From Rubeoparvulum massiliense (GTDB lineage Bacteria > Bacillota > Bacilli > Rubeoparvulales > Rubeoparvulaceae), in NCBI RefSeq assembly GCF_001049895.1, contig NZ_CVPE01000006.1:1014503-1078502 (forward strand): a DNA stretch of 64,000 nucleotides, written 5' to 3'. Shown here piece by piece: positions 18,799 through 61,224 of this stretch. The position numbers and the translations under genes are program-made. How positions within the stretch are numbered: position 1 is the first letter of the stretch; each line of letters starts with the position of its first letter. Under the pieces are notes generated by a model. The model was not told where the DNA came from and did no database searches. It saw only the letters and a program-made list of their open reading frames with translations.

Positions 18799-18850
18799 CT
18801 GACCATTCTCCTTCCTAGGCTTCATAGGGTATAGGAATGGATGGTTGGCA

Positions 18851-18928
18851 AGAAAAAGCCCTCTTCCTGAACGGTAAGAGGGCAAGCGCAATCAACCGTT
18901 CCTTATCAGCCTCACGGGACTGATTTAA
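18851..18928 (-). promoter_or_regulatory. PyrR-dependent transcription attenuator before pyrB
   Basis: On the minus strand a PyrR-binding loop fits the consensus ARUCCNGNGAGGYU (AGTCCCGTGAGGCT, within 18906-18923). It is followed by an antiterminator arm (AACGGT with ACCGTT) and a terminator: an 8-bp stem GCCCTCTT/AAGAGGGC (18858-18883) with a TTTTTCTT tail. UMP-bound PyrR would favour the terminator. Confidence 0.92.
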
Positions 18929-18959
18929 AAGAATCGTGTTCAATAGTTTTTCATTATTT

Positions 18960-21016: not shown

Positions 21017-21033
21017 TTATGGATTACAAGCAT

Positions 21034-21177
21034 ATAAAAAAGCCTCCAACCCATAGGCTGGAAGCTTGACCGCTCCTGTAAAATCGTCTCTACCTATCAA
21101 CTAGGCAGATCCCAAGATGGTTCAAATCACTTCCTTCATAGCCTCACGGGACTATCTTAAAGGACATCATTAACCCT
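21034..21177 (-). promoter_or_regulatory. PyrR-dependent attenuator before pyrR
   Basis: The transcript from the promoter at 21184-21212 carries the PyrR loop AGTCCCGTGAGGCT (21140-21153) and ends in an 11-bp terminator stem (21041-21066, 4-nt loop) followed by TTTTTTATAT on the minus strand. Confidence 0.93.
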
Positions 21178-26417: not shown

Positions 26418-26697
26418 CAAAAAACCTTTTCATCCCAAGGGACGAGAAGGTTTGCTCGCGGTACCACCCTCGTTGATCATATTTAGTCTGACCTTCAATA
26501 TGATCCACTCAGCAATTCGTAACGTGAATTGAGACGGCTTCCCTACTAAAGATTTCAGGTTGCAGCTTATGGGTGATTTTCAAAGGCGCTCCTTATCGGT
26601 CTCTCACCATTACCGACTCGCTTCAAAAGTAGCTGCCATTTACTCTTCCCATGCATAGCTGTTGTTGGTTAACAGTTTTTAAAAAAGAGCTGTTATT
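26418..26697 (-). promoter_or_regulatory. T-box leader of ileS
   Basis: This 280-nt leader occupies most of the gap between divIVA and ileS. On the minus strand it holds the T-box sequence AGGGTGGTACCGCG (26457-26470), which pairs with the tRNA acceptor end in the antiterminator. A terminator follows (stem around 26421-26453 with a TTTTTT tail). Stem I features include AGCGAGTC and GGTGAGAG, and the specifier region AAAATCACC presents AUC, an isoleucine codon. Uncharged tRNA-Ile would allow read-through into ileS. Confidence 0.94.
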
Positions 26698-58008: not shown

Positions 58009-58371
58009 TCAAGCCAAGATACTTCGCAAAGCTGATTTATTGTAGCCAACGATGAGATGTTCGCCATCAATGATTAGTGGGCGACGTAGAAGCCTTGGCT
58101 CCTCAGAAATCATCTCAAGAAGTTGGGTCATATTCATATCTTCGATATCCATGTCCAACTCCTTATATTTTTGGCTCCGCGTGGATAAAATATCATCAAA
58201 ACCATTTGTAGTAAGACGCATGATATCCTTTAATTCTTCGATTGAGGGTGGATCTTTAAGAAGATGACGCTCTTCATAATTAATACCATTCTCTGTTAGC
58301 CACATTTTTGCTTTACGACATGAAGTGCAACTTGGATAAGTATAAAATTGAACTGCCTTTGCCACAACCAT
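58009..58371 (-). CDS. mgsR: Spx/ArsC-family stress regulator MgsR-like
   Basis: Thioredoxin-fold regulator that contacts the RNA polymerase alpha C-terminal domain. The redox pair CTSC lies at residues 15-18 (FYTYPSCTSCRK), then ERHLLKDPP, ILSTRSQ and LLRRPLIIDGEHLIVGYN follow, a pattern closer to MgsR (YqgZ) than to Spx. 120 residues. It is divergent from a HTH gene and close to a yqgY-like gene, as yqgZ is in B. subtilis. I saw no clear SigB promoter. Confidence 0.82.
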   Translation of the reverse strand: MVVAKAVQFYTYPSCTSCRKAKMWLTENGINYEERHLLKDPPSIEELKDIMRLTTNGFDDILSTRSQKYKELDMDIEDMNMTQLLEMISEEPRLLRRPLIIDGEHLIVGYNKSALRSILA

Positions 58372-58479: not shown

Positions 58480-58567
58480 TTCAAATTCATTATATTCCTA
58501 AATATAATACTATGTCAATAATGTTTATGTGTTTTTTGTTTACCCCATACGACAAATGTACTATAAT
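58480..58567 (+). promoter_or_regulatory. Tandem sigma-A-type promoters before the SufR-like gene
   Basis: TTCAAA-N17-TATAAT (58480-58508) and TTTACC-N17-TATAAT (58539-58567) lie in an AT-rich 238-bp divergent region. The second is nearer and more likely; AT-richness raises the chance of a false match. No further structure was recognised here. Confidence 0.6.
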
Positions 58568-58609: not shown

Positions 58610-59314
58610 ATGAATGAGGATGCGCTAAAACTAACCAATGTCCTTTCGGATCCCACACGTTTCTCCATTTATCAATATGTAACTAGGAAACATGACACAG
58701 TAATCGTTCAGGAGATCGCTGAAGTATTTCATATTCATCCCAACGTGGCACGCCTACATCTAAGTAAACTAGAAGATGTCCGTTTACTTCAATCTACAAC
58801 TGAAAAAAACGGTAAAGGAGGACGACCCAGTCGTCTTTATTATTTATCTGATGAAGTGATTAGTCTGCAGTTTCCTCCTCGTGATTACACCTTGTTAATC
58901 CGTGTACTTATGGACACACTTAGTACCTTTGGTGAGCAGGGGTGTGAAGCCTTGATTCAAGTAGGCGAACAGTTTGGTATTGAAGCTGCAAAGCTAGCTC
59001 TACAGCAAGAGTCTAAAGTCCTCTCTCAGATGAGTGATGAAGAGAAGATAAACAGTATTGAACGTGTTATTGTAGCGCAAGGATTAAATCCCGAGCTAAA
59101 AATTCTTGATAATAAATCCATTCAGTTCATGGTTCACAACTGTACCTTTAAGGAACCTGCTGAGAAGCATCCTGACTTAGTATGTGAAATGCATCACGCC
59201 TTGTTAAAGGGGATTTTCGCCACATACTTCGATAAAGTGAATTTTACCCAAGGTAAAGAGAAAATCGCCTGCGGTTCGGGTGCATGCAGCTATACAGTAG
59301 TCAAGATCGACTAA
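58610..59314 (+). CDS. SufR-like HTH regulator with cysteine cluster
   Basis: 234 residues. A winged helix-turn-helix lies at about 8-80 (TNVLSDPTRFSIYQYV, then HIHPNVARLHLSKLEDVRLL, and the wing KGGRPSRLYYL). The C-terminal part has cysteines 178, 192, 221 and 226. The spacing of the first three (14 and 29) resembles the [4Fe-4S] ligands of cyanobacterial SufR (13 and 28), and CGSGACSY ends like SufR. A redox or iron-sulfur sensor is therefore likely but not shown. ATG at 58610 after AAGGGAG; the frame starts earlier without a site. Divergent from mgsR. Confidence 0.72.
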   Translation: MNEDALKLTNVLSDPTRFSIYQYVTRKHDTVIVQEIAEVFHIHPNVARLHLSKLEDVRLLQSTTEKNGKGGRPSRLYYLSDEVISLQFPPRDYTLLIRVLMDTLSTFGEQGCEALIQVGEQFGIEAAKLALQQESKVLSQMSDEEKINSIERVIVAQGLNPELKILDNKSIQFMVHNCTFKEPAEKHPDLVCEMHHALLKGIFATYFDKVNFTQGKEKIACGSGACSYTVVKID

Positions 59315-59472: not shown

Positions 59473-59712
59473 ATGGCCCGGATGTATCGATTGTTAGGAT
59501 TTATTTCTTTACTTATTGCATTAATGGCTTTATGGGGCGATTTAATGACCATGTTTTATATTTTCCTTGCACAGATGGTGCTTTTTGTTGCCCTTGGGTA
59601 TATGAATCTGCGAGAAAAAACGTATCTCTATCTATTTTGGGGATACATGGCCTTCTCTTTTGCAGGATACCTATTTTACACATTCTTTCTACATACACCA
59701 CCACAAATTTAA
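59473..59712 (+). CDS. yqgY: DUF2626 membrane protein (YqgY-like)
   Basis: 79 residues with about three membrane segments. The N-terminus MARMYRLLGF and the MNLREKTYLYLFWGY segment match the DUF2626/YqgY family of unknown function. A GGGAGGG site precedes the ATG. Closeness to mgsR (yqgZ) is conserved with B. subtilis. Confidence 0.85.
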   Translation: MARMYRLLGFISLLIALMALWGDLMTMFYIFLAQMVLFVALGYMNLREKTYLYLFWGYMAFSFAGYLFYTFFLHTPPQI

Positions 59713-59766: not shown

Positions 59767-60906
59767 CTATCCCAGTGTGAACTTAAAAGGACGAATGATA
59801 CTTAATTGATTCGATACCTCTCCCTTTCCTTGAACACAGACCATAAATTGATCGCCCATCCCACCTGGAAGAATCAATTGTTGAATAGCACGGAGCTGCT
59901 TGTAGTTCGACGAGAATGGATCTTCTCTCTCATGAATTGTCGGGATCAATTGTAGTATACCTGCAGAGAGCAAAAATTCTCGCTGTGTCATAAAACGAAG
60001 CGTATGTAACTTATGTTCCTCTCCCCGTTCCATCCACTGTGAAAAATTTACATGACTCGTAATATCCTTCTGACCCGGCTGTGATAATAGCTCATCATCT
60101 AGCTGATGCTCCTTAAAAGCACGAAGGGTCCCATGCTTGCGCTGTGGCAGATAGAGTTGTTCACGTGTTAGCCCATAATCGATGGTGATGAGATAGCCAC
60201 GCTCTAGTAATTGACTGATTTGTTGCTGCCATTGAAGCATGGCTAGATTCACTTCCATCCGCTGACCTACCATGGCTTGCACTTGTTCTTGTTGAACCCA
60301 ATCATGTATCTGCTCATCTTCAATGGGATAAAGTACTTCGATAAATCGTTGCCTTTCTTCGTCCCATCTTACATAGATCTCTTCCCAAGCTTCATCGGTA
60401 AATTGTAGCCAATGCACAGGAAATGCATCCAGTAATTCATTGGATAGGACGATTCCCTGAAATGCAGAAAGTGCAGTTAATGATGGGATAATATGAACTC
60501 GCTTTTCATGGCGCTGCACCATATCCTCGATCATTTGGCGGTGTGTAGGACTCTGCTCTACAATGGTATAAGTTAAGCGGTTGTAGAGAGGATTCCCCTG
60601 TAAGGCATCTAAGATTTGACAGGCTAATCTTCCGTTTCCTCCACCGACCTCCACAAGTGTCATCCTTTGATCGAGGAACATCTTCTCACCAATCTCTGCA
60701 ATGGCTAATGCCAATGCCCTACCAAACACATCCCCTACCATAGGACTAGTATAAAAATCACCATCTTTACCAATCTTCACTCTCTGCTGTTGATAGTATC
60801 CCCAACGCTCATGATAAAGTGCCGCTTCCATCCAATCGGAAAATGAAATTGCTTTTTTAGGAGAAGCGTTGATTTGATCTTGTAATAGTCTTTCTAAGTT
60901 TTCCAT
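59767..60906 (-). CDS. SAM-dependent methyltransferase, MidA/NDUFAF7 family (COG1565)
   Basis: 379-residue class I methyltransferase of the DUF185 family, which in mitochondria methylates a complex I arginine. Visible features: ISFSDWMEAALYHERWGYY near residue 20, then GDFYTSPMVGDVFGRALA near 48, the SAM motif LVEVGGGNGRLA near 83, and VLSNELLDAFPVHW near 145. Bacterial substrate unknown. The start is the ATG at 60906, five nt after GGAGG. It is divergent from the small RNA gene at 60951. Confidence 0.87.
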   Translation of the reverse strand: MENLERLLQDQINASPKKAISFSDWMEAALYHERWGYYQQQRVKIGKDGDFYTSPMVGDVFGRALALAIAEIGEKMFLDQRMTLVEVGGGNGRLACQILDALQGNPLYNRLTYTIVEQSPTHRQMIEDMVQRHEKRVHIIPSLTALSAFQGIVLSNELLDAFPVHWLQFTDEAWEEIYVRWDEERQRFIEVLYPIEDEQIHDWVQQEQVQAMVGQRMEVNLAMLQWQQQISQLLERGYLITIDYGLTREQLYLPQRKHGTLRAFKEHQLDDELLSQPGQKDITSHVNFSQWMERGEEHKLHTLRFMTQREFLLSAGILQLIPTIHEREDPFSSNYKQLRAIQQLILPGGMGDQFMVCVQGKGEVSNQLSIIRPFKFTLG

Positions 60907-60950
60907 CCAATCCTCCCCAGACAGCATGTCCAAATTTTTATTTTATACCA

Positions 60951-60979
60951 TTGACATAGTGTTAACGTGATATTATACT
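60951..60979 (+). promoter_or_regulatory. Strong sigma-A promoter of the candidate small RNA
   Basis: A perfect TTGACA (60951-60956) and TATACT (60974-60979) with exactly 17 bp between. Transcription would begin near 60986. Confidence 0.85.
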
Positions 60980-60985
60980 GAAAAT

Positions 60986-61090
60986 GAACCATCTTACATC
61001 AGTATGATGTTATGGGTAATCCTCCCACCCTCTGTAGGTTCATTATTTTACCTCCCCCAAACAACCTTCGTTATAGAAGGTTGTTTTTTT
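60986..61090 (+). ncRNA. Candidate small regulatory RNA (about 105 nt)
   Basis: Lies in the 355-bp gap between the methyltransferase and lipoprotein genes, which has no ORF. TGAACC (60985-60990) pairs with GGTTCA (61037-61042) to close a three-way junction holding ACATCA-GTA-TGATGT and TGGG/CCCA hairpins. Two C-rich stretches, CCTCCCACCC (61021-61030) and CCTCCCCC (61051-61058), are complementary to Shine-Dalgarno sites, as in FsrA- or RoxS/RsaE-type RNAs. A 10-bp terminator with seven T closes it. No known family was recognised. Confidence 0.7.
61060..61090 (+). terminator. Terminator of the candidate small RNA
   Basis: AACAACCTTC and GAAGGTTGTT form a 10-bp stem with a 6-nt loop, followed by TTTTT. 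A 12-nt direct repeat (TTTTTGTCTTAA at 61086 and 61099) follows. Confidence 0.92.
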
Positions 61091-61195
61091 GTCTTAAATT
61101 TTTGTCTTAACAATGTAGACTTGAAAGTAAGCATCGTTCTGTAGTGGATTTCCTGTCAAAACCATGCAATTTTTTTCATCAAATGTCAAGAAACG

Positions 61196-61224
61196 CAGAC
61201 ATTTTTTCCTTTTCATTATATAAT
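61196..61224 (+). promoter_or_regulatory. Promoter of the lipoprotein gene
   Basis: CAGACA (61196-61201) and a perfect TATAAT (61219-61224) with 17 bp spacing, 38 bp before the ATG. It is separate from the small RNA promoter. Confidence 0.65.

Follow-up and report, generated by a model that had tools for sequence, protein, structure and literature searches.

A conserved C-rich small RNA gene of Bacilli whose promoter carries a candidate operator for a SufR-related regulator

C-rich small RNAs and Fe-S repressors

The known systems closest to the locus presented here are (i) FsrA, an 84-nt, Fur-repressed iron-sparing sRNA of Bacillus subtilis, (ii) RoxS/RsaE of Bacillus and Staphylococcus, which is linked to ResD and Rex, and (iii) IsrR, a Fur-repressed iron-sparing sRNA of Staphylococcus. 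On the protein side, SufR acts in cyanobacteria and Mycobacterium as an Fe-S repressor of suf.

The locus lies in the window, i.e., the whole stretch of 64,000 nucleotides of Rubeoparvulum massiliense DNA that was analyzed. It holds a gene for a free-standing sRNA with C-rich motifs, close to a gene for a SufR/MsvR-like regulator. Taken as a whole, the locus is best read as follows, with reasonable though incomplete confidence: a trans-acting C-rich sRNA would be derepressed via this sensor and would block ribosome-binding sites. A published description of the sRNA or of the operator of the regulator was not found in the titles and abstracts of the literature searched.

Anatomy of the sRNA gene

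The promoter of the sRNA gene consists of TTGACA (60951-60956), a 17-nt spacer, and TATACT (60974-60979), with 11 of 12 positions matching the consensus, and is followed by an intrinsic terminator such that a ~108-nt RNA would result (Table 1). The original prediction had named this promoter, the terminator behind it, and the lack of an ORF between them, all of which are found. No ORF that closes inside the sRNA exceeds 7 codons, and a 46-aa ORF that starts at 61004 runs on through the terminator.

The segment 60980-61095 folds with −31.6 kcal/mol as compared to −16.8 ± 2.9 kcal/mol for dinucleotide shuffles (z −5.0), and 0 of 200 shuffles fold as well; the terminator supplies part of the excess stability. 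Two CCUCCC-type stretches, one of them unpaired, had been predicted, and the fold agrees: the internal stretch is partly paired, while the 3′ stretch, CCTCCCCC, has a computed mean unpaired probability of 0.99. The predicted TGAACC/GGTTCA stem that closes around two hairpins exists in the window, G022, and G048-like members and does not hold as a general feature of the family.

Table 1. Features of the sRNA locus, numbered from the first nucleotide of the window
Feature	Position	Strand	Remarks
Spx/MgsR-family gene	58009..58371	−	CxxC, TIGR01617; conserved neighbor, shares operator
Second operator copy, ATTATTGACATAGT	58509..58522	−	mgsR-like/regulator intergenic region; holds −35 of mgsR-like promoter
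SufR/MsvR-like winged-helix regulator gene	58610..59314	+	HTH_20 and V4R-like C-terminal domain; proposed sRNA repressor
DUF2626 membrane protein gene	59473..59712	+	Conserved neighbor
SAM-dependent methyltransferase gene	59767..60933	−	PF02636; divergent neighbor of sRNA, conserved
Operator dyad	60945..60966	+	Core ACCAT-TGAC-ATAGT at 60947-60960, overlaps −35 box; ACTATTGACATAGTGTTWA at same place in relatives
Sigma-A promoter, TTGACA-N17-TATACT	60951..60979	+	From sequence; kept in relatives
Closing stem, AATGAACC/GGTTCATT	60983-60990/61037-61044 (span 60983..61044)	+	From fold; outer stem in some relatives only
sRNA, ~108 nt	60986..61093	+	Start inferred from −10 box; homologues in 31 loci
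Two hairpins inside closing stem	60996-61010, 61013-61027	+	From fold; second with compensatory changes among close relatives
Internal C-rich motif, CCTCCCACCC, CCTCCC(ACCC)	61021..61030	+	Partly paired; CCCCACCCTATT in relatives
3′ C-rich motif, CCTCCCCC	61051..61058	+	Proposed anti-Shine-Dalgarno seed; unpaired; CCTCCCC(C)/CATCCCCC in relatives
Intrinsic terminator	61059..61093	+	11-pair stem 61059-61086, then T run; stem covaries

Distribution and conservation of the sRNA family

When 100 other genomes were searched at the DNA level, G022 (69% over 141 nt) and G048 stood out as clear relatives; in both, the sRNA copy adjoins the same methyltransferase gene as in the window. The wider distribution emerges from a survey of 60 stretches from 59 genomes that encode the neighboring regulator. 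Most of these loci share the gene order mgsR(−), regulator(+), DUF2626(+), methyltransferase(−), yqgX(−). In 28 of them, as in the window, a same-type promoter, a C-rich RNA, and a terminator, each on the plus strand, occupy the gap on the methyltransferase side. A covariance model derived from 14 members recovers two more outside its training set, G033 (95.6 bits) and G137 (71 bits), both where the gene was expected. The total stands at 31 sRNA loci from eight family-level groups within the Bacilli; orientation and neighbors are shared, with the sRNA(+) placed between methyltransferase(−) and yqgX(−). Weak matches of the model in other groups (E 0.0008-0.05) are probably due to chance. A fixed-pattern scan across the wider set of named genomes returns a single match, in Tepidibacillus decaturensis, and the RNA is therefore not traceable by one fixed pattern.

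When searched against Rfam 15, the window RNA has no match at gathering score, those with E up to 10 being sub-threshold and to unrelated families; the RNAs of the relatives likewise have none at gathering score and, besides rRNA and tRNA, give sub-threshold noise. The initial impression that the sRNA resembles no recognized one is thus borne out by covariance search. On the minus strand of the window, Rfam identifies a T-box leader and two PyrR binding sites (at 26435-26665, 21033-21167, and 18850-18935).

Sequence and fold drift within the family, and the constant elements are the promoter, the terminator stem, and the unpaired C-rich motifs. All 29 loci examined have CCTCCCC(C) or CATCCCCC immediately 5′ of the terminator. 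The RNAs attain two shapes: type A, represented by the window, G022, and groups f27 and f12 (as well as f8, in a longer and looser form), and type B, represented by groups f37, f33, and f29, which is 84-92 nt long and has TATCCCCTCCCAT and AACATCCCCCA invariant in ten genomes. Both end with an unpaired CCUCCCC(C) or CAUCCCCC (mean unpaired probability 0.67-1.00). The bodies of the two types align poorly; that they nevertheless descend from one gene is suggested by the location, orientation, promoter, and C motifs common to both.

Compensatory double changes affect 9 of the 11 pairs of the terminator stem, and the second hairpin has one such pair by the count of the tool and further ones on visual inspection of f12 members. 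Covariation of the stems and the upkeep of promoter and C-rich motifs in the same gap of relatives had both been named as checks, and both are observed, the former chiefly in the terminator and, among close relatives, in the second hairpin. No conserved ORF was found in the sRNA family. Judged by comparative sequence analysis, the sRNA gene is real, previously uncatalogued, and kept at one position of the chromosome in Bacilli from at least eight family-level groups, and the proposal of a new regulatory RNA with C-rich anti-Shine-Dalgarno motifs is supported. Because place, promoter, and seed are kept over these groups while the remaining sequence drifts, the family represents an unusually good case for the evolution of sRNA seeds, folds, and operators.

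Operator and SufR-related regulator

The sRNA promoter is present as predicted and is not just a promoter, as its −35 box lies within a conserved operator common to the regulator/mgsR promoters. The operator consensus is near AACACTATTGACATAGTGTTAA (ACTAT-TGAC-ATAGT). Of 400 Bacilli genomes, 59 contain CTATTGACATAGTGTTWA with at most one mismatch, usually as one site; a reversed control pattern gives 4 matches. The regulator gene is found in 91 of the 400 genomes, including 56 of the 59 with an operator; 35 regulator genomes have no site within one mismatch. This association (Fisher p 3e-40, relatedness ignored) spans about ten family-level groups. The operator is located at both the regulator/mgsR divergent promoter and the sRNA of one genome in the window, G022, G048, f12, and f27. 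Five loci keep regulator, operator, and sRNA with mgsR missing beside the regulator, and group f22 (five loci read) has the mgsR/regulator operator only, its methyltransferase gap being devoid of the sRNA.

Two further observations concern individual groups. In f12, the dyad also occurs 5′ of another sRNA, unrelated to the first, that lies near a perR-like gene of the Fur/PerR type (L032, L033, L035-L038, and L005, 1501 onward; minus strand in some). This sRNA contains 46 nt, TGTACATTTCTTTTACTCTTCCTGAGGTACTAACTATATCCTTCTT, that are identical in seven genomes, its terminator varies, and an Rfam scan of L033, L037, and L005 gives no above-threshold match at the sRNA. A frameshift or stop interrupts the regulator gene of G048 (L108 5001-5701) and that of G109 (C1:635322-636006), and both genomes keep the operator; these genes are either pseudogenes or sequencing errors.

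All 33 regulators compared match the SufR family TIGR02702 (best E 2e-13), and that of the window scores 27.4 bits, which is below the curated equivalog cut-off of 178.8 bits. MsvR is matched by 13 of the 33 and the V4R domain by 17, in each case weakly. In the AlphaFold model of the regulator (pLDDT 84), the C-terminal domain groups with V4R-type sensor domains, and a fold search returns V4R aromatic-sensor domains and not a solved Fe-S protein. The window regulator gene does not lie beside suf genes. Three residues, C178, C192, and H195, are invariant among the 33 proteins, and C226 is present in at least 90%. The cysteine spacing is 14/34 as compared to 13/28 in M. tuberculosis SufR, whose cysteines C203, C216, and C244 are all needed (PMC6034842). 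Since the conserved cysteines resemble these, an Fe-S or thiol-redox signal is the leading guess for the regulator, and the CxxC retained in the mgsR-like partner fits this redox theme.

The sRNA promoter is probably switched off by this neighboring, cysteine-rich sensor, for which we infer repression and not activation. As co-occurrence suggests, the SufR/MsvR-like repressor would bind the ACTAT-TGAC-ATAGT dyad over the −35 box and, when bound, would silence the sRNA, the Spx/MgsR-type gene, and probably its own gene. Loss of an Fe-S cluster from the three-cysteine center, or its oxidation, would then allow the ~108-nt RNA to be made.

Control by Fur and control by Rex were both rejected because pattern searches gave no site: no Fur-box-like sequence with up to 3 mismatches lies closer than 2 kb to the sRNA promoter (across the window, their number is at chance level), and no Rex-like sequence is found at the promoter. 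It is unlikely, although conceivable, that the operator of this C-rich base-pairing sRNA belongs to some other regulator and that the SufR-like protein is only a passenger of the locus. Such an arrangement would accord with the f3 regulators (33-35% identity to that of the window), which have no recognizable operator nearby, and the binding of the dyad by the regulator is deduced from co-occurrence. It would, however, leave unexplained why nearly all operator genomes encode the SufR-like regulator and why the operator sits in the divergent promoter region of that regulator, where it is kept even if mgsR is not adjacent; Fur-like and Rex-like sites are lacking at the sRNA promoter.

Repression by the SufR-related sensor also invites a broader reading, in which a SufR-type Fe-S/redox repressor in Bacilli has a regulon composed almost entirely of small regulators (one or two C-rich sRNAs and an Spx/MgsR-type RNA-polymerase-binding protein) and drives a sparing response that does not depend on Fur and senses the state of the clusters themselves, not free iron. 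This broader reading is tentative and rather more doubtful than not.

Candidate targets

By analogy to described sRNAs, the C-rich tail, which is unpaired, probably acts by blocking ribosome-binding sites. The unpaired seed CCUCCCCC, aided by the internal C-rich motif, would pair with G-rich Shine-Dalgarno regions and thereby block translation.

Exact complements of the 3′ motif are not enriched in the genome of the window (71 matches; the reversed control gives 111). In eight f12 genomes, they correspond mostly to the sRNA itself, and no recurrent gene was noticed. Relative to 283 control leaders drawn from the same genomes, the leaders of acnA and leuC are average and those of sdhC only slightly better. 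The sdhC-type leaders often have a run of at least 5 G at the Shine-Dalgarno site, which is seen in 7% of controls. About half of 24 sdhC-like leaders elsewhere, nearly all from genomes with no recognized sRNA, also show the run, which is therefore not tied to this RNA. The G runs of sdhC in Bacilli (L230-L248, L269-L291) may serve C-rich sRNAs in general as a docking site. For type B, the seed complement has 52 non-self matches versus 17 for the reversed pattern in ten genomes, and among these only a rocA-like ribosome-binding site recurs at a plausible position (G095, G256). This site matches at 12 of 13 bases (L341, L342, near 1501), the gene name (pyrroline-5-carboxylate dehydrogenase) being taken from the translation, and may be regarded as a weak lead. 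Taken together, these results make a single target of perfect complementarity unlikely and speak neither for nor against Fe-S enzymes.

That complementarity searches gave no target would also be expected if the sRNA titrated or sponged another RNA or a protein, such as a G-rich sRNA or an RNA-binding chaperone, and left mRNA ribosome-binding sites alone. We give this little credence, given that the C motifs match the anti-Shine-Dalgarno seeds of known Firmicute sRNAs and are kept while the remaining sequence drifts.

Flanking genes

A lipoprotein gene lies 3′ of the sRNA on the same strand in the window, which would suit a premature-termination leader or riboswitch of that gene. It has its own promoter-like site, at 61196-61224, and most relatives have no same-strand gene within 500 nt. 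As there is usually no co-directional gene 3′ of the sRNA and yqgX is often convergent, the sRNA is not a leader, and this very improbable reading was rejected on the grounds of the convergent downstream genes. In G022 (L021 1100-2122), an HD-GYP-like gene takes the place of yqgX as the convergent neighbor of the sRNA. Consensus scans return promoter matches alone and terminator matches alone at counts near shuffle expectation for the region, yet a functionless chance promoter beside a terminator shared by flanking genes has a negligible likelihood, being refuted in practice by conservation in eight family-level groups, invariant C motifs, and covariation. The non-chance feature of the gene is the combination of promoter and terminator and, above all, their conservation.

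Comparison with known systems

The SufR-like regulators resemble SufR in having a winged helix, a C-terminal domain, and three similarly spaced conserved cysteines, in addition to the common TIGR02702 match (PMC6034842). They differ in that the window protein scores far under the family cut-off, the neighbors are mgsR and the sRNA and not suf, and they seem to act on an sRNA and an Spx-type gene. Likeness to MsvR and V4R proteins extends to the partial family matches and the sensor domains found by fold search; these matches are weak. Should the repressor sense Fe-S clusters or thiol redox, Firmicutes would have a second way, independent of Fur, of exerting control through sRNAs, and the signal of an uncharacterized SufR-like family would become directly testable.

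Among the sRNAs, FsrA is likewise small and free-standing, with unpaired C-rich regions that are thought to pair with mRNA ribosome-binding sites (PMC8464778). In contrast to FsrA, the sRNA described here has no Fur-box-like site or Rfam match and a different locus, sequence, operator, and neighboring regulator. RoxS/RsaE is comparable in size (~115 nt), in its several C-rich regions, and in its redox-linked control (PMC8464778), whereas the present sRNA lacks an Rfam match and a Rex-like site and differs in operator and synteny. IsrR is set apart by its Fur boxes, to which nothing corresponds here, by the lack of a visible relation in sequence or locus, and by its occurrence in other groups of Bacilli. 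The sRNA may thus work in a manner analogous to FsrA, RoxS, and IsrR but, on the features tested, is not a member of those families.
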